Made by a program: the position numbers and the translations under genes. The notes beneath the pieces are model-generated. The model was not told the DNA's origin. It worked only from the letters and a program-made list of their open reading frames with translations, and ran no database searches. Positions 14,500 to 28,216 of a stretch of 29,224 nucleotides of DNA are shown here, piece after piece. The stretch's first letter is position 1. Every line of letters begins with the position of its first letter. Origin of the DNA: a virus; the IMG/VR virus record IMGVR_UViG_3300032561_000096, positions 1-29,224 of that record; one strand, 5' to 3'.

Positions 14500-15441
14500 A
14501 TGAGTGGCGTTCCATACACTTTCGCAACTGCTTCGGGTTCAATCCCGTTAAATGAGCTTGATTCAAACTTTGCCACACCGATTACGCTTGGATCAAGCAC
14601 AGTTAGCCTTGGCGGATCATTAACAACGATTGCTGGCTTAACATTAACTAGCAGCGCAATAAATGGTACGGTTGGAGCAACTACCCCATCGACAGGCGCA
14701 TTCACCAATTTGTCAGCGTCGGGAACAATCACCGGAACGGCATTTTCTTTATATTTTGCAAGCCCTCCTTCAATTGGATCATCTGCTGCTAATTCAGGCG
14801 CATTTACGACTTTGAGCGCATCATCAACTGTCAGTGGTGCTGGTTTTACTAATTATTTGGCTTCTCCTCCTGCTATTGGAACAACTGCTGCGGCAGCTGG
14901 TGCGTTTACTACCTTATCGGCATCATCGACAGTTAGTGGACCGGGATTTAGCGCTTACTTGGCAAGCCCTCCTGCTATTGGTTCAAGTACGCCATCAACC
15001 GGCGCGTTTACGACCATTTCAGCCGTTGGAACTACTTCTGCTATTGCGTTGAAAACCCCTAACATTACAGAACCAGTAAATGTTGTTGGGACGGCTCCAT
15101 CATCTACGCAAAACTTTTATATTGCATCAGGTGCGGTTCAGTATTACACGAGCAATGCGGCAAACAATTGGACAGTTAATTTTGCATTTTCAAGCGGTAC
15201 GAGCTTGAATGCTCAAATGTCAATTGGCGATTCAATTACTGCAACTATGCTTGTTACTCAAGGCACAACGGCATATTTTTGCTCTGCGGTCACAATTGAC
15301 GGCGTATCGGTTACACCATTATGGCAAGGCGGTACAGCGCCATCATCGGGAAATGCTTCGGGTGTTGATGCGTATGTTTTTGCGATTATAAAAACCGCAT
15401 CTGCAACATATAGTGTTTTTGCTTCTCAGACAAAATTCTAA
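14500..15441 (+). CDS. Repeat tail fibre protein
   Basis: A 313-residue protein with no enzymatic motif. It starts MSGVPYTFATASGSIPLNEL, a common start of phage fibre proteins. Residues about 28-48 contain ITLGSSTVSLGGSLTTIAG, which also occurs in the giant fibre near residue 330. Residues 55-185 carry four repeats of about 34 residues with GAFTTLSASSTVSG. The last 100 residues are a beta domain with SSTQNFYIASGAVQYYTSNA. Such GAFT repeats usually form trimeric fibre shafts. The RBS is GGAG at 14485-14488. It is probably baseplate-attached through the I-like protein encoded upstream. Confidence 0.7.
   Translation: MSGVPYTFATASGSIPLNELDSNFATPITLGSSTVSLGGSLTTIAGLTLTSSAINGTVGATTPSTGAFTNLSASGTITGTAFSLYFASPPSIGSSAANSGAFTTLSASSTVSGAGFTNYLASPPAIGTTAAAAGAFTTLSASSTVSGPGFSAYLASPPAIGSSTPSTGAFTTISAVGTTSAIALKTPNITEPVNVVGTAPSSTQNFYIASGAVQYYTSNAANNWTVNFAFSSGTSLNAQMSIGDSITATMLVTQGTTAYFCSAVTIDGVSVTPLWQGGTAPSSGNASGVDAYVFAIIKTASATYSVFASQTKF
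14659..15050 (+). repeat. Four ~34-residue GAFT repeats in fibre gene
   Basis: Copies begin near 14659, 14764, 14866 and 14968; the last three are 102 nt apart. Shared words are PPAIGTT, GAFTTLSASSTVSG and YLAS. Base changes between copies are frequent, so this is an old repeat kept at protein level. Confidence 0.8.
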
Positions 15442-15442
15442 T

Positions 15443-16285
15443 ATGCGTATCGCAAAAATTGGCTCGGCTGCATCTTCTGCTTTCGGATTTTCCGGGGGTG
15501 TAGTAACTCCACCATCGCCAGTTACCGTCACTTATTTATCTATTGCTGGTGGTGGCGGCGGCGGTACGGGCGCAGGTGGCGGCGGCGCGGGAGGTTGGCT
15601 TTCATGTAGTCAATCAATTACTCCCGGCACAGTATTAACCATTACGGTTGGTGCGGGTGGATCGTCAAACACTCAAGGCGGTACTTCATCAATTATTGGT
15701 ACGGGTGTTTCAATTTCTTCCGTTGGTGGCGGTTATGGCGCTTTGTATGCTCAAACGGGCGGCGCTGGTGGCTCGGGCGGAGGTGGCTCTACAAATAATT
15801 GCGGCGGCGCATTGGCTGGAGGTGCTGGAACTTCGGGACAAGGATATGCGGGTGGTTATGGCTATGGCACAGTAGGAACAACGGCTGGTGGCGGCGGCGG
15901 AGCTGGTAGTCCGGGCGCAAACGGAAACAACCCTGCTGGTTGCGGTGGTGTTGGAAAATCAACTTCGATTAGTGGATCATCCGTTACTTTAGCGGGTGGT
16001 GGTGGTGGCGGAAGAACGACTGCTGGATGTGGAAGTGGCGCGGGTAAAAACGGCGGAGGCAATGGCGCAATTAATACATCTAGCGCTGGCTCGGCTGGTA
16101 CTGCAAATACGGGTGGAGGCGGTGGAGGCGGTTATGGCGGAGCTGGAGCCGGAGGTTCAGGCATGATTTCTATTTCTGTACCGACATCAAGATATTCATC
16201 AAATGTGACCGGAACATATACCGTTTCCACATCAGGTGGGAATACAATTATCAAATGGACAGGATCGGGTACTTACACCGTTTAA
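15443..16285 (+). CDS. Glycine-rich tail fibre/adhesin-like protein
   Basis: ATG 15443 gives 280 residues (MRIAKIGSAAS...); an in-frame TTG 15413 lies inside the previous gene. Residues 36-250 are strongly glycine-rich, with runs such as AGGGGGGTGAGGGGAGG, and repeat the order YLSIAGGGGGG, TITVGAGGS, GGAGTSGQGYAGG and GGGGGAG. The last 45 residues form a normal beta domain ending NTIIKWTGSGTYTV. The same architecture occurs twice in the gene at 24046. Glycine-rich loops forming polyglycine II bundles are known in phage adhesins such as S16 gp38, so receptor contact is plausible but not shown. Confidence 0.7.
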   Translation: MRIAKIGSAASSAFGFSGGVVTPPSPVTVTYLSIAGGGGGGTGAGGGGAGGWLSCSQSITPGTVLTITVGAGGSSNTQGGTSSIIGTGVSISSVGGGYGALYAQTGGAGGSGGGGSTNNCGGALAGGAGTSGQGYAGGYGYGTVGTTAGGGGGAGSPGANGNNPAGCGGVGKSTSISGSSVTLAGGGGGGRTTAGCGSGAGKNGGGNGAINTSSAGSAGTANTGGGGGGGYGGAGAGGSGMISISVPTSRYSSNVTGTYTVSTSGGNTIIKWTGSGTYTV

Positions 16286-16294
16286 GGAATTGCG

Positions 16295-17422
16295 ATGTCA
16301 ATTTTACTTTTTGCCAATAACGCCAAGACTACGATAGCGTCACCGATCACAAGTGTATCTACGTCGGTCAATCTTGCTCCCACTACAGGATCACTATTTC
16401 CTAGTCCTTCAGCTGGTCAATACTTTGTAATGACTTTTAACGATGCGGCGACAGGTTTGATTGCTGAAATCGTATGGGTCACAGCTAGATCGGGCGATAC
16501 ATTGACAATCGTTCGCGGTCAGGAAGGCACAGCTGCTAAAGCATGGTTGGCAGGTGATTATGCAAGCTCTTTCCCGACTGCGGGAACCATGTCAGATTTG
16601 GTTCAAATCGATCAGGTTCAGGATGGCACTTATACCAATGCAACATCGGCTGGAACTGCAAATGCGTTGACGGCTTCGATTTATTCTAATTTGACATCGA
16701 TTCCGAACAACTTCAATTTTGTCATCAATGCTACGGCAAATAATTCTTCAACGGCAACTTTACAATTAACTTTTGTTTCGCCAATCACAGGCGCAACAAC
16801 CATTTTGAGTGCCGCGCCGATTGTAAAAGGTGCAAATTTATCGATTTCGCCTAATGACATTGTGGCTGGTTATCCATGCCTTTTGACATATAGCTCATCA
16901 TTTGCGGCTTATGTATTACAAAACCCCGCAACCAATAGCTCTGCTCAAGCTCCTTCGGGTGCGGTTTTGCATTTTGCGATGCAAACAGCTCCTTTTGGTT
17001 GGTTGATTGCAAATGGTGCAGCAGTATCAAGAACGACGTATGCGTCATTATTTGCAGCAATCGGCACGACGTTTGGCAATGGCGACGGATTCACAACATT
17101 TAATTTGCCTAATCTTTTAGGTCAATTTATTCGAGGTTGGGATGATGGCGCAGGAATCGATCCGGGCAGGACATTTGGTAGCAATCAAAGTAGTGCATTT
17201 GGATCACACAATCATGGTGTAACCGATCCCGGACATAGTCACTTTACGACGGGTGACATGATTAATCCTGCTGCTGGAACGGGTGTTTATGAATGGCCCG
17301 GTGGTTCGCAAGGTGTTATCACTAATACTAATCCCGCATTTACAAATATTACGATTCAAAATTCAGGAAGTACGGAAACAAGACCGATAAACGTGGCATT
17401 ATTGCCATGTATCAAAACTTAA
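16295..17422 (+). CDS. Tail fibre protein with phage tail collar domain
   Basis: A 375-residue protein in three parts. Residues 1-104 (MSILLFANNAKTT to TAGTMSDL) are closely like the N-terminus of the giant fibre at 17729. Residues 105-218 form a beta shaft. From residue about 220 is a tail collar domain: APFGWLIANGAAVSRTTY, FAAIGTTFGNGDG, FNLPNLLGQFIRGWD, then SHNHGVTDPGHSHF. The His cluster (H-N-H-G and H-S-H) is typical of collar fibre tips. It ends with ETRPINVALLPCIKT, as most collar proteins do. It probably uses the N-terminal domain to attach to the baseplate and the collar tip to bind receptors. Confidence 0.85.
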   Translation: MSILLFANNAKTTIASPITSVSTSVNLAPTTGSLFPSPSAGQYFVMTFNDAATGLIAEIVWVTARSGDTLTIVRGQEGTAAKAWLAGDYASSFPTAGTMSDLVQIDQVQDGTYTNATSAGTANALTASIYSNLTSIPNNFNFVINATANNSSTATLQLTFVSPITGATTILSAAPIVKGANLSISPNDIVAGYPCLLTYSSSFAAYVLQNPATNSSAQAPSGAVLHFAMQTAPFGWLIANGAAVSRTTYASLFAAIGTTFGNGDGFTTFNLPNLLGQFIRGWDDGAGIDPGRTFGSNQSSAFGSHNHGVTDPGHSHFTTGDMINPAAGTGVYEWPGGSQGVITNTNPAFTNITIQNSGSTETRPINVALLPCIKT

Positions 17423-17438
17423 CTTTTGGAGTTAAATA

Positions 17439-17714
17439 ATGGCTACAAACAATTATGGCTCGCCGATTACTGGTACGCTAACCGGAACGACAGCCAATGT
17501 CGCGTTATCGGGCGTTCAATATCCGGCATCCGTTGTATTGAATTCATCTTCAGGTAGTCGAGCGATTCAATTGTCATTCGATAACGGTGTCACGTTTTAT
17601 CCAGCTGTAACACCAACTTATACCGAAACGACACAAATCGTATATGTATTTAATTTTCCGGTAACTAATATTCAGTTTACCGGCGCAGCGAACGATACCT
17701 ATAGCATCCTTTAA
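17439..17714 (+). CDS. Small beta protein within fibre region
   Basis: A 91-residue protein between two fibre genes. It has SGVQYPASVVLNSSSG, AIQLSFDNGVTFYPAV and VYVFNFPVTNIQFTGA, an alternating beta-strand pattern. A small virion protein or fibre accessory is possible, for instance at a fibre-baseplate joint. The RBS GGAG (17428-17431) lies within a short hairpin (17419-17435). Function unknown. Confidence 0.55.
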   Translation: MATNNYGSPITGTLTGTTANVALSGVQYPASVVLNSSSGSRAIQLSFDNGVTFYPAVTPTYTETTQIVYVFNFPVTNIQFTGAANDTYSIL

Positions 17715-17728
17715 TTGGTTGGTGGATT

Positions 17729-20700
17729 ATGACCATTTTCTTATTTGCGAACCAAGCGCAAACGACACTTGCTGCGCCCATTTCTAGCACCGCAACAACT
17801 GTTACGGTAGCGTCGGGAACTGGTCAATATTTTCCACAACCAATAACAGGGCAACAATTTGCCTTAACTTTCATTTCTGCGTTTAGTAGTCTAGTAACCG
17901 AAATCGTGTACGTCACTGCGGTTGATGGTGACACTTTTACTATTGTTAGAGGACAAGAGGGAACGACAGCTCAAGCATGGAATGCAAATGATTTTGCAGC
18001 AAACTTGATGACTGCGGGTACAGGTGCGATATTTACTCAAACCTACGGCCTTGAAAATGGTTTGTATTCTGCTCAGTTTACAAACATGGCGACCAATACC
18101 GGTACAGTTACGACGCTGCCGGTGCATCCTCTTGATTTAGCAAACAAGCAATATGTCGATTCGGTCAGTGGAGCTGCGGCATCGAAATACGAGTGCCAAT
18201 GTGCAACGACTGCGAACATTACGCTTTCAGGTTTGCAAACGCTTGATGGTTATACAACCCTTGCTGGTGATCGGGTTCTAGTAAAAAACCAATCCAATCC
18301 CGCATATAACGGCATTTATGTCGCTGAAACGACGGCATGGTCGCGTTCGACTGACATGATTAGCTGGAATGAAGTGCCGGGTGCAACCACTTTTGTGCAA
18401 AACGGCACGTTATATGCGAATACTGGTTGGGTAGCGATTACTTCGGAACTTGGCACGATTGATGTCACACCGATCATTTGGTCACAGTTTTCAGGTCAAG
18501 GTACATACACAGCCGGAACAGGGTTAACCCTAACTGGTACGCAATTTAGCATTACGAATACTGGTGTATCGGCTGGCTCTTATGGTGTCGCTGCTTCGGT
18601 TCCGTCGTTTACGGTCAATGCTCAAGGTCAATTGACAGCTGCGGCTAATACGCCGATTAGCATAGCGCCAAGTCAAATTAATGCTCCAATTCCTAATAGC
18701 AGCCTTGCCAATTCTTCGATTACACTAGGATCGAATTCGATTTCATTGGGCGGCTCTTTGTCCACTTTAGCTGGTGTCAATATCAGCGGCGCGACAAATA
18801 CGCTTACTTTCATCCCAAATTCTGCGCTTGATTACAGCTCGATCACGATCAATGGTAATTCCGTATCGCTGGGCGGTAGCACGACAGTCACCGCAGTTAA
18901 TCCTTATGCACTCACAATTGGAACGGGTTTAACCGGGACCAGTTACAACGGAAGCGCAGCTGTCACGATTGCTTTAGGTAATGTCGGTACGGCTGGCACA
19001 TACGGATCAGCTGGCTCGGTTGCGGTATTGACTACCAATGCACAAGGTCAAGTCACAGCAGCAACGACGACATCGATTGCAATTAACAATACACAAGTAA
19101 GCGGCTTGGGTACGATGTCCACCCAAAATGCAAATAATGTCGCTATTACGGGCGGCACGATTCAGGGTGTATCGCTAACACTTGATAGCTTAAATAATAC
19201 TCCTGTCGGCAATACAAATCCCGCGACGATTGTTGGTACGACAATTACTGCTAATTCAGGGTTTTATGGTTCAGGCGCAAATCTGACCAGCATTCCAAAT
19301 GCTGCGTTGGTGTATTCATCCATTACGATTAACGGCGATCCGGTATCGCTTGGTGGATCGATTACTGTAACTGCTGATGTGCCTTATTCGCTAACGGCTG
19401 GAACAGGTTTGTCCGGCGGCAGCTTTAATGGTTCAACCCCGATTACATTTGCAATTGCTAATACAACGGTTGTGTCAGGCTCTTATGGCGCAGCTAACAG
19501 CACGTTAGAGGCAACGGTTAATGCACAAGGTCAATTAACGGCATTGTCAGCTGTAGCAATTAGCATTGCACCAAGTCAAATCAACGCAACCATACCGAAT
19601 TCAGGTTTAACCAATTCTTCGATCACAATTAACGGCAATTCTGTCAGCCTTGGTGGTTCGACAACGGTTACAGCGGTTAATCCTTATTCTTTAACTTTAG
19701 GAAATGGCTTAACCGGCACATCCTACAACGGTTCAGCTGCGATTACTGCTGCGATTGATACAACGGTAGTGGCGACGCTTAGTGGTGTTCAAACACTGAC
19801 AAACAAAACAATCAGTGGCGCATCCAATACTTTAAGCAATATTGGCAATTCGTCATTGGTTAATTCGTCAGTTACGGTTAATGGCAATTCTGTATCGCTT
19901 GGTGGCTCGACAACGATCACCGCCAATACGACCAATGCGTTAACAATTGGCACAGGCTTATCGGGTACAAGTTTTAACGGGTCATCACCAGTTACGATTG
20001 CGATTGCAAACAGTGGCGTGACATCGGGAACTTATGGTTCGGCTGCTGTAATTCCGGTCATTACGGTTAACTCGCAAGGCCAAATTACATCAATAAGCAC
20101 ACAGGCCACCAACGCTCCTGCCTATCAGGGAACTTGGAATGCGTCCACCAACGTACCAACTTTGACATCTTCGGTTGGCACTGCTGGCTATTATTACGTT
20201 GTGTCAGTAGCGGGTAATACGACATTAAATGGTGTTTCAGGTTGGAATGTAGGTGATTGGGCTATTTTCCAAAATGGCGCATGGGATAAAGTACCCGGTT
20301 CAACTTCTGAATCGTTTACTAATCTGACAACAACCAATTTGGCGGTAACTGGTTTGACTGGTTATATGTACGCCAACGGGTCAGGAAATGTTACAGCATC
20401 GACAACAATTCCTGTGACCGCTTTGACAGGTACGCTTCCCGTCGCAAACGGCGGTACAGGCGCAACCAGTTTGTCAGGTTATATCTATGGAAATGGTACA
20501 GGAGCGATGACAGCATCGTTGACCATTCCCACAACTAACTTGTCCGGCACGATCACTAATGCTCAATTGGCAAATAGCTCGGTTACTTTTGCTGGCGTAA
20601 CTGTAAGTTTAGGAAATAGCGGAACAATACCTTTGGAAAATTTGTCGGATGTTGCTATTAGCGCTCCGGCAACTGGTCAAGTATTGTCATGGAATGGTAC

Positions 20701-23700
20701 TAGCTGGATTAACGCAAATAGCTCACAAACGGGTAGTGTTGGAGCTGGAACGACATTTTGGAATGCAACGCCATTAATTACTGGTACGGGTACGAATAAC
20801 GTATTGCCAATTATTACGCTTGCCAATGCGCCTGTAACAGCTGGTGGTACGCAAACAGCGTCATCCAATCCTAACGGCAATACGGTTGCAGCAATTGGTT
20901 TGTTATCAGCTCCATTGGGTCGCACAACCATTGATGCTGGACAATGGACATTTGATATTTATATCGGTGTCAATAGTGTTGGCGGCGGTAGAACGACTAC
21001 GTTTACTCGTAACACTTATCAAGTCATTTATACGTCACCCAATACATTGACGACAACGGGTACGGGTACTTCGAGAACAGTTACGGCTTCGGGTGATTCT
21101 CCATTTGCAAACGTCACAGCGTCGGCTACAAACACACTTGCATCGTATATTCAAACACCGCAAGGCTTGTATCAGATTACCGCTAAGTCATCAAATACTG
21201 TTGTTACGATTACTGTACCAAGCACATACGCAAACGAAACGGCGGTATCAGGTTCGGTTTGGAATTTATTGTTTGGGGTGACTTCACCAAATATTACAAA
21301 CATTACGCCTAATTATGGTTTGTATATTGTTCAAACAACTCAACCAGCGTTTACGATTAATTCGACGGATTCGTTGGGCGGAATTGGTTTTACAACATCG
21401 ACAGGTAACACAACGGTTACGGCTGTATATAACGGCACTCAATACGCATCGAACGTGGTAACGCCATTAGTTACTCAACACAATCAATTGTCGGGTTTAC
21501 AGGGCGGTACAGCTAATCAGTATTACCATTTGACCAGCTCGGAATACACCGGAACGGGTTCGGGTACATTTGTTCGTGCGACAACTCCGACACTAAGTCA
21601 ACCCACTATTTCAGATGATGAAATATTTACAAGTCAATCAACCGCGCCAAGTTATTTGAAAGGCAAAGTTTGGTATGACGGTGTTGCTGATGGATTGGCT
21701 TATTACAATGGAGTAACAAATAATGAAATTGTAATTGGTCAAGAAGTGCAGTTGCAGGTTTATAACAATACTGGGTCAACAATTAATTTGGGCCAGCCTG
21801 TTTACATTACCGGTCAATCCGGTGGTTTGCCAACAATTGCGCTTGCTCAAGCAAATAGCCTTACAACTTCAAACGTCATCGGTGTTGCTAACCAAAATAT
21901 TTCTGCGTCATCAAATGGATATGTTGTTATTCTTGGTGATGTTATGGGTTACAACACGACCGGATTTACAGCTGGTCAAACCCTATATTTGGATTATGCG
22001 GTTGCCGGTAACTTAATTACCACTCAGCCAACTGCACCAAATTATGCTGTGCGGGTTGGATTTTGCGTCACTAGCGCATCAAGCGGTCAATTCTTTACGT
22101 CAGTACGTAACGTATATACCAATGCGTCTAGCATTATTGGTACGTTGGGCGTACCAAATGGCGGCACAGGAGCGACAACGCTGACAGGCTATGTGTATGG
22201 CAATGGAACTGGCGCAATGACTGCCAGCACGACCATTCCTACTACAGTTCTTTCAGGTACGATTACCAACTCACAATTGGCAAATAGCACTATTTCCGGC
22301 ATTTCGCTTGGAAGTAATTTAGCGACTTTGACTATTGGCACAGGATTATCGGGAACATCGTATAACGGATCAAATGCAACAACGATTGCATTGACCAATA
22401 CGACTGTTACTGCCGGAAGCTATACCAGCGCGAATATTACGGTTGACGCTCAAGGCCGAGTGACCGCTGCATCAAATGGTGGTGGAACTGGCGTTTCATC
22501 ATTCCAAACGTCGTTATCAGGGTTAACCCCATCAACATCGACAACCGGCGCTGTAACGCTTGCCGGTACTTTGGGAGCAGCGTCGGGCGGTACGGGTGCA
22601 ACGACTTTAACTGGTTATGTCTATGGCAATGGCACAAGCGCTATGACCGCATCGACAACCATTCCTACGACTGCGCTCAGTGGCACGATTACAAATGCTC
22701 AATTGGCGAATTCATCAGTTACGGTCAACGGAACAGCAATTAGTCTTGGTGGTTCAGGCACGATTACAGCTGCCAATCCAAACGCGTTAACAATCGGTAC
22801 GGGGCTTACTGGCACAAGTTATACAGGCGCGTCTGCTGTCACGATTGCAATTGATACGACTGTCGTTGCAACATTGACCGGGATTCAGACATTGACCAAT
22901 AAAACAATGTCCGGTGCGTCAAATACTTTTAGCAACATCCCAAATAGCGCATTGACCAATTCGACTATTTCGGGCGTGGCTCTTGGATTGAATTTAAACA
23001 CTTTGACGATTGGTACAGGTTTGTCCGGTACGTCTTACAACGGTTCGGCTGGCGTAACAATTGCACTTTCGAATACAGCTGTCACCGCTGGTTCTTATAC
23101 GCTTGCAAGTTTGACAGTTAATGCTCAAGGACAATTAACGGCGGCATCAAGCGCAAGCACAACCGGATCGGGCAGCGTTGTATTGGCAACCAGCCCATCA
23201 TTGACCACACCATCATTGGGCGCAGCTACCGCAACCAGCATTGTTGCAAGTAACGGTTTGTATTCAAGTGGTTCTTATGGTGGCTCATATAGTGACGGTA
23301 TTGTTGTTGATTACGCAACGGGCGTTGGACGTATTAGCGTCGGCACAGGCGATGGTTTAACAATTTATAACGGTGGTGTCGGAACAACTGCATTGTTAAC
23401 TTTATCTTCAAGCGGCGTTATTACGACTTCGACTTGGAATGGTTCAACAATTGGAGTTACCTATGGCGGAACGGGTGTATCTACACTGACAGGTTTGGCT
23501 TACGGTAATGGTACGTCGGCATTTACTGCTGCAACTGCTGCTCAAGTGGTTAGCGTTATTGGTACGACTGCCGTTACAAACGCAACAAATGCAACCAATG
23601 CAACAAACGCAACGACCGCAACCAACATTGCTGGTGGTTCTGCTAACCAAATACCGTATCAATCCGGTTCAGGTTCGACAGCATTTAGCTCAAATCTGAC

Positions 23701-24049
23701 ATTTAACGGAACGACAATTTCTGATGCTTACGGAAAGATCCGCGCAGTACCACAATCAGGATCATCCAAGACCACAAGTTATACATTGGCTACTACTGAT
23801 GTCGGTCAATACATTCTGATTGGTTCAGGTGGATCAATCACCATTCCAAATTCGACGTTTTCAACTGGCGATATTATTTCTCTGTTTAATCAAACAGGCG
23901 GTAGCATTACAGTAACTTGCTCAACATCAAATGCGTACATTGCAGGTAGCGGAACAAACAAAACATCCGTATCTCTTGCAACATACGGTGTAGCTACTAT
24001 TTTATTTATTACATCAACACTTTGCGTAATTAGCGGAAATGTATCGTGA
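17729..24049 (+). CDS. Giant repeat tail fibre protein (2106 aa)
   Basis: The largest gene here. Residues 1-104 match the N-terminus of the collar fibre, followed by ANKQYVDS (138-145), a common fibre element, and a module with TLDGYTTLAGDRVLVKNQ (171-188). Residues 330-780 hold repeats of NGNSVSLGGSTTVTA (375, 535, 635, 718) and GTGLTGTSYNGS (398, 558, 658, 741). A globular insert near 799-855 has GYYYVVSVAGNTTLNG and WNVGDWAIFQNGAWDKV. NGGTGATTLTG-type motifs lie near 907, 1477, 1619 and 1912, and another repeat block spans 1537-1770. The last 100 residues have IRAVPQSGS, TTDVGQYILIG and TIPNSTFSTGDII, a common fibre tip domain. No S74-type intramolecular chaperone is seen. It probably forms a long trimeric fibre. 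Confidence 0.8.
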   Translation: MTIFLFANQAQTTLAAPISSTATTVTVASGTGQYFPQPITGQQFALTFISAFSSLVTEIVYVTAVDGDTFTIVRGQEGTTAQAWNANDFAANLMTAGTGAIFTQTYGLENGLYSAQFTNMATNTGTVTTLPVHPLDLANKQYVDSVSGAAASKYECQCATTANITLSGLQTLDGYTTLAGDRVLVKNQSNPAYNGIYVAETTAWSRSTDMISWNEVPGATTFVQNGTLYANTGWVAITSELGTIDVTPIIWSQFSGQGTYTAGTGLTLTGTQFSITNTGVSAGSYGVAASVPSFTVNAQGQLTAAANTPISIAPSQINAPIPNSSLANSSITLGSNSISLGGSLSTLAGVNISGATNTLTFIPNSALDYSSITINGNSVSLGGSTTVTAVNPYALTIGTGLTGTSYNGSAAVTIALGNVGTAGTYGSAGSVAVLTTNAQGQVTAATTTSIAINNTQVSGLGTMSTQNANNVAITGGTIQGVSLTLDSLNNTPVGNTNPATIVGTTITANSGFYGSGANLTSIPNAALVYSSITINGDPVSLGGSITVTADVPYSLTAGTGLSGGSFNGSTPITFAIANTTVVSGSYGAANSTLEATVNAQGQLTALSAVAISIAPSQINATIPNSGLTNSSITINGNSVSLGGSTTVTAVNPYSLTLGNGLTGTSYNGSAAITAAIDTTVVATLSGVQTLTNKTISGASNTLSNIGNSSLVNSSVTVNGNSVSLGGSTTITANTTNALTIGTGLSGTSFNGSSPVTIAIANSGVTSGTYGSAAVIPVITVNSQGQITSISTQATNAPAYQGTWNASTNVPTLTSSVGTAGYYYVVSVAGNTTLNGVSGWNVGDWAIFQNGAWDKVPGSTSESFTNLTTTNLAVTGLTGYMYANGSGNVTASTTIPVTALTGTLPVANGGTGATSLSGYIYGNGTGAMTASLTIPTTNLSGTITNAQLANSSVTFAGVTVSLGNSGTIPLENLSDVAISAPATGQVLSWNGTSWINANSSQTGSVGAGTTFWNATPLITGTGTNNVLPIITLANAPVTAGGTQTASSNPNGNTVAAIGLLSAPLGRTTIDAGQWTFDIYIGVNSVGGGRTTTFTRNTYQVIYTSPNTLTTTGTGTSRTVTASGDSPFANVTASATNTLASYIQTPQGLYQITAKSSNTVVTITVPSTYANETAVSGSVWNLLFGVTSPNITNITPNYGLYIVQTTQPAFTINSTDSLGGIGFTTSTGNTTVTAVYNGTQYASNVVTPLVTQHNQLSGLQGGTANQYYHLTSSEYTGTGSGTFVRATTPTLSQPTISDDEIFTSQSTAPSYLKGKVWYDGVADGLAYYNGVTNNEIVIGQEVQLQVYNNTGSTINLGQPVYITGQSGGLPTIALAQANSLTTSNVIGVANQNISASSNGYVVILGDVMGYNTTGFTAGQTLYLDYAVAGNLITTQPTAPNYAVRVGFCVTSASSGQFFTSVRNVYTNASSIIGTLGVPNGGTGATTLTGYVYGNGTGAMTASTTIPTTVLSGTITNSQLANSTISGISLGSNLATLTIGTGLSGTSYNGSNATTIALTNTTVTAGSYTSANITVDAQGRVTAASNGGGTGVSSFQTSLSGLTPSTSTTGAVTLAGTLGAASGGTGATTLTGYVYGNGTSAMTASTTIPTTALSGTITNAQLANSSVTVNGTAISLGGSGTITAANPNALTIGTGLTGTSYTGASAVTIAIDTTVVATLTGIQTLTNKTMSGASNTFSNIPNSALTNSTISGVALGLNLNTLTIGTGLSGTSYNGSAGVTIALSNTAVTAGSYTLASLTVNAQGQLTAASSASTTGSGSVVLATSPSLTTPSLGAATATSIVASNGLYSSGSYGGSYSDGIVVDYATGVGRISVGTGDGLTIYNGGVGTTALLTLSSSGVITTSTWNGSTIGVTYGGTGVSTLTGLAYGNGTSAFTAATAAQVVSVIGTTAVTNATNATNATNATTATNIAGGSANQIPYQSGSGSTAFSSNLTFNGTTISDAYGKIRAVPQSGSSKTTSYTLATTDVGQYILIGSGGSITIPNSTFSTGDIISLFNQTGGSITVTCSTSNAYIAGSGTNKTSVSLATYGVATILFITSTLCVISGNVS
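18841..23160 (+). repeat. Degenerate repeats in giant fibre
   Basis: Three interleaved repeat words recur: SSITINGNSVSLGGSTT (five clear copies), LTIGTGLTGTSYNGSAAVTI (at least seven) and GGTGATTLTGYVYGNG (three in this span plus a fourth near 23462). Two copies of LTNKTISGASNT also occur (near 19797 and 22895). Copies differ at many silent sites, so they are not recent duplications. Confidence 0.8.
23576..23620 (+). repeat. Five 9-bp units encoding a TNA tract
   Basis: Five imperfect 9-base units (consensus ACAAATGCA) encode NATNATNATNATTAT near residue 1955 of the giant fibre. Simple tandem units like these can vary in number by slippage, always in frame because the unit is a multiple of three. 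Confidence 0.75.
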
Positions 24050-25659
24050 GTATTATTCAGATGCTCCTCGCTGGTTCCGGTAAACCAGTTACTTATTCTG
24101 CAACATATTTAGTTGTTGCCGGAGGCGGTGGCGGTGGATTCTTTTGTAACGTCCCCGGTGGCGGTGGCGGTGCTGGTGGTCTTTTATTTGGTAATACCGC
24201 AATATCTAACACTTGTGCCACGACAGTCACGATCGGCGCTGGTGGCGCTACAAATACTCAAGGTTCTAATTCCGTATTAGGCGGCATTACTGCAACTGGC
24301 GGCGGTCGTGGTGGTTATGCTGGTAATAGCACAGGCGGCACAGGCGGTTCAGGTGGTGGCTCATATAGTACGGTAACGACAGGTGGTGCTGGTACATCGG
24401 GTCAAGGCTATGCGGGTGGCGGAGGTGATGGCGCAGGTTATCCATATACTTATCCCGGTGGTGGCGGCGGCGGAGCTGGTGGTGCTGGCTCAAGAGCAGC
24501 TCCTTGTACGGGCGTAGGTGGTGCTGGTGGTGTTGGCTATGCAAGCTCTATTACAGGAACATCAACGTATTTCGCCGGTGGTGGTGGCGGCGGCACAGAA
24601 TCAAACTTGACTACCCCGTCAGCTGGAGGAAATGGAGGCGGTGGTTCAGGTGGTACAGATTGGATTCATTCGGTCGCTGGTGTGCCTAATCTTGGTGGCG
24701 GTGGCGGCGGTGGGGCTGGTAGTACTTATGGTACTGGCGCATCTGCTGGTGGAGCTGGCGTTGCCATTATTTCTTACTGTGGCGCTCAAAAATATTCAGG
24801 TGGTGTGGTCCTTTGCATTAGCGGCAACACTGGTCATTTATTTTCATCATCAGGTACATTAACGCCATTTACCCCATCCTATACCGGCACAGCATTACTT
24901 ATTGCAGGTGGGGGGGGAGGTAGTTTTACTTCCGGCGTGAGTGGTGGTGGCGGTGGTGCTGGTGGCTTTATACCAATGAAAATTGGTTTGGCTTCGGGTA
25001 CAACTTATACAATTACTATTGGCGCAGGTGGCTCGGCAAGCTCTAACGGTTCAAATTCCACAGCTTTTGGCGTTACTGCTTTGGGTGGGGGTGCTGGTGG
25101 TGGAACAGGCTCAAGTTATTTAGCCGGTATTGGTGGATCAGGCGGCGGAGCTTATTCAGGTGGTTACGCTTGTAACCCACAAAAAGGTGCGCGTGGTACT
25201 GCCTTCCAAGGTAATGATGGTGGTTATGGCGACGGTGCAGGTTATCCTTATACCTATCGTTCAGGTGGTGGTGGTGGCGCTGGTAGTGCTGGCAATGCTT
25301 TGGGTAGTTATCCCGGCAATGGTGGATCGGGCGCAACATCAAATATCACCGGGTCATGCGTTACATACGCCGGAGGTGGTGGCGGCGGAACTCAATCAGG
25401 AGCAGGTGGTACTGGTGGGTCAGGCGGCGGCGGTACGGGAGGATCATCGGGCGGTGCTGGTACGGCTGGTACAGCTAACACTGGCGGCGGCGGAGGTGGT
25501 GGTGGTTCTAGTGGCGGCGCAGCTGGTGGATCGGGTGTGTTTATTATGTCTATTCCTACGGCAAAATATACTGGCACAACGACAGGTTCACCGACGGTTA
25601 CAACCAGCGGTTCAAATACGATATTGAAATTTACTTCATCAGGGAGTTATACAGCATGA
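24046..25659 (+). CDS. Double glycine-rich adhesin-like protein
   Basis: GTG 24046 forms a GTGA overlap with the giant fibre stop and gives 537 residues. It holds two tandem glycine-rich domains, about residues 18-277 and 278-537, each with the order LVVAGGGGGG or LLIAGGGGGS, TVTIGAGGA or TITIGAGGS, GGGDGAGYPYTY or GYGDGAGYPYTY, and a GGGGGGG run. The two domains share GDGAGYPYTY, so a domain duplication is likely. The end, NTILKFTSSGSYTA, matches the end of the glycine-rich protein at 15443. No membrane segment or signal peptide is visible. It is probably a receptor-binding protein or adhesin attached to the giant fibre; this is inferred from coupling and composition. Confidence 0.7.
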   Translation: MSIIQMLLAGSGKPVTYSATYLVVAGGGGGGFFCNVPGGGGGAGGLLFGNTAISNTCATTVTIGAGGATNTQGSNSVLGGITATGGGRGGYAGNSTGGTGGSGGGSYSTVTTGGAGTSGQGYAGGGGDGAGYPYTYPGGGGGGAGGAGSRAAPCTGVGGAGGVGYASSITGTSTYFAGGGGGGTESNLTTPSAGGNGGGGSGGTDWIHSVAGVPNLGGGGGGGAGSTYGTGASAGGAGVAIISYCGAQKYSGGVVLCISGNTGHLFSSSGTLTPFTPSYTGTALLIAGGGGGSFTSGVSGGGGGAGGFIPMKIGLASGTTYTITIGAGGSASSNGSNSTAFGVTALGGGAGGGTGSSYLAGIGGSGGGAYSGGYACNPQKGARGTAFQGNDGGYGDGAGYPYTYRSGGGGGAGSAGNALGSYPGNGGSGATSNITGSCVTYAGGGGGGTQSGAGGTGGSGGGGTGGSSGGAGTAGTANTGGGGGGGGSSGGAAGGSGVFIMSIPTAKYTGTTTGSPTVTTSGSNTILKFTSSGSYTA

Positions 25660-26090
25660 GTCACTTTGCATTCGTTCCAAATATTGTCGATGGAAAAGGT
25701 ATTGTCGAAAACGTCATTGTTATCGAACAAGATCAAATCGATACTGGATTGTGGGGAAATCCTTCAGCATGGATTAAGACTAGCTATAACACTCGTGGTG
25801 GCATTCACTATGCTGCTGACAGCAATACGCCCGATGGTGGTGTTGTTTTGCGAGCTAATTATGCTGGTATTGGATTTACATACGATCAAGTAAATGATGT
25901 ATTCTATCCACCACAGCCCTATCCAAGCTGGAAGATTTCATCTCCAAATTGGACTTGGACTACACCAGTAGCATTACCGGCAGATTCGGGGACCGGGACC
26001 CCTCCGAAATTGTACGTTTGGGATGAACCATCTTTATCATGGATTATCCCGACACCACTTGTGACGACAAATAATGGACAATCCACTTAG
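25656..26090 (+). CDS. Conserved aquatic-phage protein of unknown function
   Basis: A 144-residue protein beginning MSHFAFVPNIVDGKGIVENV. The motifs WIKTSYNTRGGIHYA, LRANYAGIGFTYD, YPPQPYPSWKIS and a final YVWDEPSLSWI are a recurring pattern in proteins of marine and freshwater phages, especially cyanophages, usually near fibre genes. Its function is not known. The start forms an ATGA overlap with the glycine-rich gene and its end overlaps the oxygenase-like gene by 17 nt. Association with fibres is inferred from location. Confidence 0.65.
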   Translation: MSHFAFVPNIVDGKGIVENVIVIEQDQIDTGLWGNPSAWIKTSYNTRGGIHYAADSNTPDGGVVLRANYAGIGFTYDQVNDVFYPPQPYPSWKISSPNWTWTTPVALPADSGTGTPPKLYVWDEPSLSWIIPTPLVTTNNGQST

Positions 26091-26721
26091 TAATCAATTA
26101 TCGGTTGCAAATTACTTTCCAACATTAATTTACACAATTGAAAAACCGGAATTTTTAGACGGTGTAAAAACTGTATTTAAAGCACACCTTTCAAAAATAA
26201 AAAAAAGTAAAAAAACAGATCATCCAATAATGACCGATGATCTAACCAATGAAGAATCCATTATTGATTTTTTAAAATATGCCACTGCGACGGGGTGGAA
26301 TATTTTGGATTCTCAGGGCTACAAAATGGAGGATAAGTGGGTTGCTTATGAATCCATGTGGGGTCAACGATACAATAAATACTCACAAATGGAACAGCAC
26401 GTTCACAATAACGGCGTTCAATTGGTAGGGTTTTACTTTTTAGATTGTCCGCAAAATAGTCCAAAAATTGTTATTCACGATCCAAGACCGGGGAAAGTAC
26501 AAATTAATTTGACTGAGAGCAACATTGAAAACGCAACTCCTGCCAGCACAATGATTAATTTTGCTCCGCAAGAAGGAATGTTTTTCTTTGCAAATTCATG
26601 GTTGCCGCATTCTTTTACTAGAAATGAATCGCTCAAACCATTTAATTTTATTCACTTTAATCTAAATGTCATTCCAAATCCCAACTTTGGAAAAGAATCA
26701 ACGGCTGCTGAAGTGATATGA
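26074..26721 (+). CDS. 2OG-Fe(II) oxygenase-like protein (PF13759-like)
   Basis: A 215-residue protein with a recognisable 2OG-Fe(II) oxygenase pattern of the type common in aquatic phages. Residues 107-128 read EQHVHNNGVQLVGFYFLDCP, matching the H-x-H and G-x-Y-Y-L segment; HDPRPGK follows at 135-141; GMFFFANSWLPHSF (168-181) gives the distal His179. These are likely iron ligands (His109/His111 and His179). After this His, family members normally carry an Arg about 11 residues later that binds 2-oxoglutarate; here that place is Phe190, with Arg184 nearby. Activity is therefore uncertain. The gene looks more AT-rich than its neighbours, with several A-runs. It may modify fibre proteins or nucleotides; the substrate is unknown. 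Confidence 0.65.
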   Translation: MDNPLSNQLSVANYFPTLIYTIEKPEFLDGVKTVFKAHLSKIKKSKKTDHPIMTDDLTNEESIIDFLKYATATGWNILDSQGYKMEDKWVAYESMWGQRYNKYSQMEQHVHNNGVQLVGFYFLDCPQNSPKIVIHDPRPGKVQINLTESNIENATPASTMINFAPQEGMFFFANSWLPHSFTRNESLKPFNFIHFNLNVIPNPNFGKESTAAEVI

Positions 26722-26936
26722 AATACCAAATTAGATTCAACAAATCTCGCGGTCAACCGGGTCGCGGTACGGTAGATCATGTTTGGCGAGTATTTGAGGA
26801 TGGTAAAGAATATCTATTTAAAAATTTCCAGGTGAATGTACCTTGTGTATCCGAGCGCGACGGCGAAGATTGGAATATGCTATGCGAAGGGACAATGACC
26901 ATTGATCGTGAAACTTCAACGGCAATAATATCGTGA
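26718..26936 (+). CDS. Small conserved aquatic-phage protein
   Basis: A 72-residue protein with MKYQIRFNKSRGQPGRGT, VDHVWRVFEDGKEYLFK, and a final MTIDRETSTAIIS. This is a compact pattern that I recognise from small uncharacterised proteins in cyanophages and related aquatic myophages. The function is unknown. It overlaps the oxygenase stop (ATGA) and the next gene (GTGATA), so it is in one tightly coupled cassette. The many charged residues suggest a soluble protein. Confidence 0.6.
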   Translation: MKYQIRFNKSRGQPGRGTVDHVWRVFEDGKEYLFKNFQVNVPCVSERDGEDWNMLCEGTMTIDRETSTAIIS

Positions 26937-28216
26937 TAAATATATCCCCATCGGGCGGCGATGATACGGCATCAATACAAACAGCGTTAAATTCGGGCGA
27001 TCATGTTTGCCTTGATGTTGGTGAATTTAATATTAGTAACGCGTTAACTATCAATCATGCCGGGCAAATACTATCAGGTAATGGTCGTGCAGCTACTCAA
27101 ATCAATGTAGGTTCGGGTTTTGTTCATTCACAAGGTGTAATTATTTTTGCAAGCGGCGAGGAAGGCCCACAGCTGCAAAACTTTGGTATTTATTTTAGTC
27201 AGCCTGACACCAATGTCAGAACAAACCTGATTAACTATCCAGTGGCGATTTACGCTCAAAATACCGCACGTTTTACTATTACCAACATGAAAATTACCAA
27301 TGCGACGAATGGCATTGATATGCGTGGCAATTGCGGCGGCGCATTTATTAATTTATTAGAAATGTCAGCGTATCAAACGGGCATTCAAATTGACGGCTCG
27401 ATGGATACGGTTCGACTCAATCAATTCCATTTTTGGAATTTTGATATGACATCGAATCAGGCGAGCATTTTTTATTCGCAGGGTACGAAAGCGCTAGATA
27501 TAGGTCGGGTCGATGGATTATTTATCGACGAATTTTTGAACATTTCCAACCTTGGCATGAATATCTATGAAGGGGCTACTGGCGCACCTTGGATATACAT
27601 GAGCAATTCAGGCTTTGATACATTCAATGGTATTCAAATGTCAGCTGGATCGCTTCAGGCCGTCAATTCATACATCACGATGGAAGGCGGCAATCCTTTG
27701 CAAGGCGTATTGCAAACGGGTGGATTCCTTCAGTTTTCTAACTGTTATTTTGCAAGCGCACAATCTCAACCATTTATGCTGCTGGAAAACATGACCGGCG
27801 GATCATTGCAAATTGATAACTCATACTTCAATTTCAATAATGGGACGCAAATATCGGTTGGCGGCAATATGGCAATTGATTCGATTCAAGTCAATAATTG
27901 TCGATTTGAGGCGCAATCAGCAAACTTTCAATTGATCGGTGTCGCAGCCAGCTCGAATCCAAATAACATCCATTGCACAAACAATGTGATGCAAACGCAA
28001 CCGAACATTACATACAAAAACCCGATCATTAATATCCTTTCGGGCAATCGTGCGTATTTGTCAGGCAATCGGGTATTGGACAAAGGAACTGGTTCGAGTA
28101 CATTTATTGCGATTGCACAAGACAACTTTAATTGGGTATCGGGAAATATTGCACCGGGCTGGAATTATTCGTTTCCAAGTACGGGAAAAACTGGTTTCTA
28201 CGCCAACAATTTGTGA
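26933..28216 (+). CDS. Beta-helix tailspike-like protein (pectate-lyase-3 type)
   Basis: GTG 26933 overlaps the previous stop and gives 427 residues. The N-terminus SPSGGDDTASIQTALNSG followed by VCLDVGEFNISNALTI is the standard start of pectate-lyase-type right-handed beta-helices. Rungs follow with regular N/S/G turns: TITNMKITNATNGIDMRG, QAVNSYITMEGG, LQFSNCYFASAQ, LQIDNSYFNFNN and IQVNNCRFEAQS. No N-terminal baseplate-anchor domain like that of the fibres is visible. It may be a tailspike depolymerising capsule or O-antigen, or a receptor-binding spike. Catalytic residues cannot be fixed from the sequence alone. Confidence 0.75.
   Translation: MINISPSGGDDTASIQTALNSGDHVCLDVGEFNISNALTINHAGQILSGNGRAATQINVGSGFVHSQGVIIFASGEEGPQLQNFGIYFSQPDTNVRTNLINYPVAIYAQNTARFTITNMKITNATNGIDMRGNCGGAFINLLEMSAYQTGIQIDGSMDTVRLNQFHFWNFDMTSNQASIFYSQGTKALDIGRVDGLFIDEFLNISNLGMNIYEGATGAPWIYMSNSGFDTFNGIQMSAGSLQAVNSYITMEGGNPLQGVLQTGGFLQFSNCYFASAQSQPFMLLENMTGGSLQIDNSYFNFNNGTQISVGGNMAIDSIQVNNCRFEAQSANFQLIGVAASSNPNNIHCTNNVMQTQPNITYKNPIINILSGNRAYLSGNRVLDKGTGSSTFIAIAQDNFNWVSGNIAPGWNYSFPSTGKTGFYANNL

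Follow-up and report, generated by a model that had tools for sequence, protein, structure and literature searches.

Phage T2 carries gp38. In phage S16, gp38 is reported to cap the fibre end and to dock through three helices with Trp residues (PMC6851490). Pam3 gp24 is described as having a conserved glycine-rich stem, a variable distal tip, and an N-terminal helical domain for the baseplate (PMC9608196). The same paper gives residues 64-162 as the helical domain of the Pam3 chaperone gp25, and the likeness of gp24 to S16 gp38 and to ALK is published there by the Pam3 authors.

The window, which is the whole stretch of 29,224 bases that was analysed, is a virus record in which the region described here is preceded by contractile-tail genes, matched as tail sheath, baseplate hub, and baseplate wedge. 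Genes A and B, the fibre gene directly before each, and the gene at 25656..26090 all lie on the plus strand. Gene A (15443..16285, start ATG at 15443) encodes 280 amino acids, of which 34% are Gly, and gene B (24046..25659, start GTG at 24046) encodes 537 amino acids, of which 36% are Gly. Gene A follows a fibre-like gene of 313 amino acids (14500..15441) that matches phrog_5906 over residues 177-313, with 1 nucleotide between the stop of this gene and the start of gene A. Gene B follows the giant fibre (17729..24049), which is 2106 amino acids in length and has an N-terminal adaptor common to relatives; the fibre stop and the gene B start share an overlap of 4 nucleotides. Gene A probably encodes the tip of the 14500-15441 fibre and gene B that of the giant fibre, each attached through a class-specific N-terminal plug, with a candidate chaperone encoded beside B.

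One glycine-rich domain in gene A and two in gene B had been described in the earlier note, and this count is confirmed by the sequence and by PF21722 matches. D1 occupies approximately 15521-16282 of gene A, while D2 (about 24091-24879) and D3 (about 24880-25656) make up most of gene B. PF21722 (Gly_rich_2) matches gene A with 44.8 bits and gene B with 104 bits over two stretches, against a Pfam cut-off of 24.3. It is the only Pfam family reached by either gene at E 0.01, and no gp38 family match was found in that search. Both genes also match phrog_2295. The number of identical aligned positions is 117 of 242 between D1 and D2, 124 of 250 between D1 and D3, and 131 of 248 between D2 and D3, with alignment Z values of 7.4, 10.1, and 10.3, respectively, relative to 300 shuffles that preserve the Gly positions. 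Since these scores exceed those of the Gly-preserving shuffles, the likeness is more than one of composition, and the three domains are homologous. The C-termini nearly match, as had also been noticed, with gene A ending in NTIIKWTGSGTYTV and gene B in NTILKFTSSGSYTA. A loose form of this motif is found at 30 of 87 distinct Gly-rich ORF ends and is a family feature. D2 and D3 do not look like products of a recent duplication, a reading given up because they are 53% identical and group as sisters with a support of only 0.74. In tree distance, D3 lies nearest to the third domain of an L153 gene. Relatives often have two-domain versions as well.

Relatives were gathered using anchors that are not Gly-rich: the baseplate protein, the giant-fibre N-terminus, the protein encoded at 25656, gene 14500, and the giant-fibre C-terminus. 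Gly-rich homologs were sought with local profiles with filters off; a family search run on the window's record had found gene A but not gene B, an outcome attributed to the looseness of its first look. Among named phages, neither the DNA nor the protein searches, run with the region or gene B, returned a match. The blank protein search with gene B is attributed to the low-complexity filter because homologs surfaced via neighbouring genes. The close relatives gathered here come from two contigs, L001/L005 and L002/L004, with 0 to 2 base differences from the window. Two mosaics were also seen. L109 (10001-10357) is 96% identical at the giant-fibre N-terminus and 74% at the baseplate protein. L086 (10001-16369) resembles the middle of the giant fibre in stretches, at up to 95% identity, but its fibre ends differently.

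Across 112 family domains, 81 columns have an entropy below 1 bit and 62 of these are Gly; ten variable segments separate the conserved Gly columns or follow them. The expectation that loops between conserved Gly motifs vary is thus borne out at the level of the family. The Gly runs would serve as the stem, leaving contact with the host to the variable loops that separate them.

The structure of gene B was modelled with 21 relatives as input (mean pLDDT 76.3, pTM 0.52). Residues 1-11, which belong to the plug, have a pLDDT below 50, and the single short N-terminal helix (residues 4-7) is of low confidence. The Gly runs have no DSSP helix or strand, which is compatible with extended polyglycine-type helices. 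The top Foldseek matches of the model are Pam3 gp24 (E 0.0011) and the Bxb1 tail tip (E 0.0033), with none past E 0.001; gp38 does not appear among the Foldseek or VIA matches listed for this model. A second aligner places D3 on Pam3 gp24 with a Z of 14.4 (175 residues, 2.8 A, 26% identity) and on Bxb1 tail tip chain Q (PDB 9D93) with a Z of 13.4 (173 residues, 3.3 A, 32% identity). The Pam3 fibre is also the best PDB sequence match of the profile (E 0.0018). In its model, gene B has the TNF-like and glycine-rich fold of Pam3 gp24, as seen in the D3 match. For D1 and D2, the same fold is suggested by sequence homology. Because gene B matches both Pam3 gp24 and Bxb1, the fold and its likely role as an adhesin are already known in kind. 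The suggestion of a structured, adhesin-type glycine-rich domain is therefore upheld at the level of the model, and A and B would be separately made adhesin tips.

The fibre genes upstream of A and B end in two different domains, here called docks, that would act as sockets. Dock1 is the last 137 amino acids of the 14500 gene (15028-15438), and dock2 is the last 122 amino acids of the giant fibre (23681-24046). In relatives, both are also ORF ends with a tip gene next, and the gap from dock to next gene is a few bases. The gene after the dock is Gly-rich in 10 of 18 distinct cases for dock1 and in 31 of 62 for dock2; the rest have other bodies, some of them here called LamG-like and FN3-like. 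The bodies that would be exchangeable behind the plugs are glycine-rich, LamG-like, IEDVF-type, and others. PDB sequence searches gave 0 matches for dock1 at E up to 5 and a best E of 0.6 for dock2.

The next gene begins with a pattern of roughly MPxLxxxGaasAkaFGf after dock1 and MSGIMxMLLG after dock2. In the window, the plug-1 type N-terminus of gene A occupies about 15443-15499 and the plug-2 type N-terminus of gene B about 24046-24087. In L037 the dock is swapped: a fibre with the same giant-fibre adaptor ends in dock1, and the next gene starts with plug 1. In L012 fusion forms are found, in which both fibres end in the Gly-rich domain.

L102, L116, and L117 have what may be a third dock type; the Gly-rich genes that follow it start with a different and longer N-terminus. 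Fibre ends resembling it are also present in L104 and L106, where no Gly-rich gene comes next. Dock2 with Gly-rich tip genes is also found in L343 and L342, contigs binned to Chitinophagales and Dehalococcoidia genomes; these bins may contain stray phage contigs, and no host is claimed.

The association of plug and dock was measured across bodies. Profiles made from Gly-rich genes assign 27 of 30 other-bodied genes to the correct dock, and training in the reverse direction gives 31 of 33 correct, with gene A among the misses (Fisher p about 3e-4 in each case). For a prospective test, 77 further loci (74 + 3) were collected, leaving out the two contigs of the window and four earlier-seen loci. 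Removing 44 duplicates, judged on their first 14 residues, and 2 genes at a contig edge left 31 distinct next genes. The first profiles assign 19 of these 31 correctly: 9 of 9 Gly-rich and 8 of 20 other genes behind dock1, and 2 of 2 behind dock2. Most of the misses carry the IEDVF-type body, which is present also in the dock2 training set, indicating that the 26-residue profile window had learnt letters of the body. The plug window was shortened after these misses were seen, and the better figures that follow come from this post hoc window. With plug residues only, scored against genes with other bodies, 87 of 93 are correct, compared with 60 in the best of 200 label permutations. The 87 comprise 60 of 61 genes with three named bodies and 27 of 32 miscellaneous genes, each of the latter counted as its own body, so that cross-body separation is not assured for them. 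With redundancy filtered, the plug-only test across bodies gives 38 of 39 correct (permuted maximum 31), and with plugs filtered at 60% identity it gives 22 of 23 (permuted maximum 18), the miscellaneous bodies being unscored in both (27 of 66 and 22 of 45 rows). The single scored failure is a gene of L153, whose start codon was mechanically chosen and is probably wrong. The next gene thus appears, from its sequence, to carry at its N-terminus a plug specific to the dock, irrespective of the body that follows. This rule looks new, a judgement that rests on literature searches in which no record of it was found.

The short plug would fit the socket domain that ends the fibre encoded directly upstream. 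The same pairing could arise by genetic hitch-hiking, where bodies recombine downstream of the dock and the first codons simply stay behind, with no role in binding. Plug and dock are DNA neighbours a few bases apart, and linkage alone could hold them together. Within one dock class, however, the letters of the plugs diverge widely while the pattern is kept, which suggests selection, and the pairs stay predictable after the 60% plug identity filter. Hitch-hiking is therefore considered unlikely, and a plug that binds its dock is preferred.

The two plug classes also bear on the suggestion of the earlier note that A and B encode alternative tips, here of the giant fibre. The two proteins do share a fold family and similar C-termini, as such a competition would have it. 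Their plug classes differ, however, and each gene adjoins its own dock-bearing fibre gene, so that we regard competition for the giant fibre as very improbable and do not retain it. Of the two genes described as flanking the giant fibre, gene B does so directly and gene A does not; A adjoins the 14500-15441 gene and is separated from the giant fibre by two genes (16295-17422 and 17439-17714). In the reading preferred here, A would sit on dock1 of the 14500-15441 fibre and B on dock2 of the giant fibre, placing glycine-rich tips on two different fibres simultaneously.

The fibre and tip pair at 14500-16285 is extra in the window and lies between the conserved 13794 gene and the short-fibre gene at 16295. 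Neither dock1 nor a Gly-rich domain lies between the 13794-type and 16295-type flanks in any of 29 loci carrying both (0 of 29), and the flanks are at most 200 nucleotides apart in 26 of them; this count is from the locus listing and includes some same-contig or near-identical loci. The short collar-type fibre and the giant fibre have similar adaptor sequences at the start (16295-16960 and 17729-18520). In L010-L013, the short-fibre adaptor ends in a Gly-rich domain where the window has a Collar domain. The 91-amino-acid gene between the short and giant fibres (17439-17714) has no Pfam or PHROG match and is found at the same place in many relatives, at 53-78% identity.

Directly behind gene B is a 144-amino-acid protein matching phrog_7759 (25656..26090), a candidate assembly chaperone for glycine-rich tips. 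Among 39 loci fetched with phrog_7759 outside the contigs of the window, a Gly-rich domain is adjacent in 28, within 5 kb in 4, and absent in 7. The reverse count was made behind the docks and was limited to next genes that have 1.9 kb or more of sequence following them. Within 1.5 kb, phrog_7759 is found behind 26 of 28 Gly-rich genes, 2 of 7 otherwise glycine-rich genes, and 1 of 11 other bodies (Gly-rich vs other bodies, p 1e-6). With the prospective set added, and the distance limit raised from 1,500 to 1,700 nucleotides after L155 was missed at 1,599 nucleotides, the counts are 30 of 32, 2 of 7, and 1 of 24. The difference between Gly-rich and other bodies persists with identity filters of 70% (22 of 24 vs 1 of 22, p 1.5e-9) and 55% (8 of 10 vs 1 of 18, p 1.2e-4); at 45% the numbers are too few (1 of 2 vs 1 of 12, p 0.27). 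The two Gly-rich exceptions include gene A, near which no phrog_7759 gene of its own is present. The phrog_7759 protein may possibly serve both A and B.

Downstream, the end of the phrog_7759 gene overlaps a 2OG-Fe(II) oxygenase gene (26074-26936), after which comes a 72-amino-acid ORF. The oxygenase, the small ORF, and phrog_7759 are also together in L012 and L156, and in phage DSL-LC04 an oxygenase gene overlaps phrog_7759. An ORF of 427 amino acids (26933-28216) before the holin gene has no PHROG match.

The model of the 25656 protein (144 residues, pLDDT 94.3) contains one helix, at residues 25-29. Its best PDB match is the Pam3 chaperone gp25, with a weak Foldseek E of 0.72. Alignment to residues 3-57 of gp25, in its N-terminal client-binding beta-sandwich, is also weak (Z 4.7, 54 residues, 2.3 A), and gp25 is the only one of 147 aligned chains with a Z of 2 or more. 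The C-terminal alpha-helical trimerisation domain of gp25 is absent from the model. A PDB sequence search with phrog_7759 gave nothing useful, and a Pfam search with 44 members gave nothing convincing. Gene B and the 25656 protein match both partners of one solved complex, and this is the best support for a chaperone, the second match being weak. The protein could instead be a structural part of the tip, such as a cap or clamp in the virion. This reading, which gains from the weakness of a match limited to the client-binding domain and from the missing trimerisation helices, is possible and somewhat doubtful. The sole match with a Z of at least 2 is the chaperone that serves Pam3 gp24, the best match of gene B, and this favours a chaperone while leaving some probability to a structural role; the phage Mu chaperone is said to stay in the virion (PMC9608196). 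The modelled protein is most likely a client-specific assembly chaperone that would assist in the assembly of glycine-rich tips. Its place as a companion gene of the glycine-rich kind of tip looks new.

There is about an even chance that environmental phages share a combinatorial tip code, consisting of a few sockets with their own plugs, exchangeable bodies, and an independent, body-specific phrog_7759 chaperone for the glycine-rich ones. If this is true, a lineage that keeps its plug could alter its binding by swapping body and chaperone together. Provided that plugs and sockets do pair, tips could be assigned to fibres from genome sequence alone in uncultured phages, phrog_7759, a family of unknown function, would gain a role, and modular tip evolution would become testable in vitro.

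The tip fold itself is already known, while the matching of end piece to fibre and the companion gene appear to be new. Pam3 gp24/gp25 (PDB 7YPX, 7YFW) shares with this locus the TNF-like and glycine-rich fold, and the client-binding domain of gp25 is weakly matched by the 25656 protein. Pam3 gp24 differs in having its own helical baseplate domain; A and B instead bear short plugs, and each follows a separate fibre gene. Similarly, gp25 has a helical trimerisation domain, and the 25656 protein does not. The Bxb1 tail tip shares the glycine-rich tip domain but is a tail-tip part of a siphophage. The TNF-like glycine-rich domain of ALK/LTK has a similar arrangement but belongs to animal receptors, and its Z values of 6.5-8.3 are of a size for which the tool warns that the arrangement may simply be a common one. 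The likeness to ALK/LTK was set aside as a new result, as it is published for Pam3 gp24 (PMC9608196). In S16 gp37-gp38 (PDB 6F45), the fibre gene likewise precedes a glycine-rich adhesin encoded on its own (PMC6851490). The three-helix N-terminus with exposed Trp of gp38, as described there, is absent from the N-termini MRIAKIGSAASSAFGFSGG (gene A) and VSIIQMLLAGSGKP (gene B); the plugs contain no Trp, and no such helix bundle is seen in their sequence. By our reading, the Pfam match and the N-terminal attachment domain expected of a gp38 are lacking, and the pairs formed by A and B with their fibres would not be members of the gp37-gp38 system of T2 and S16 but would work in the same way.
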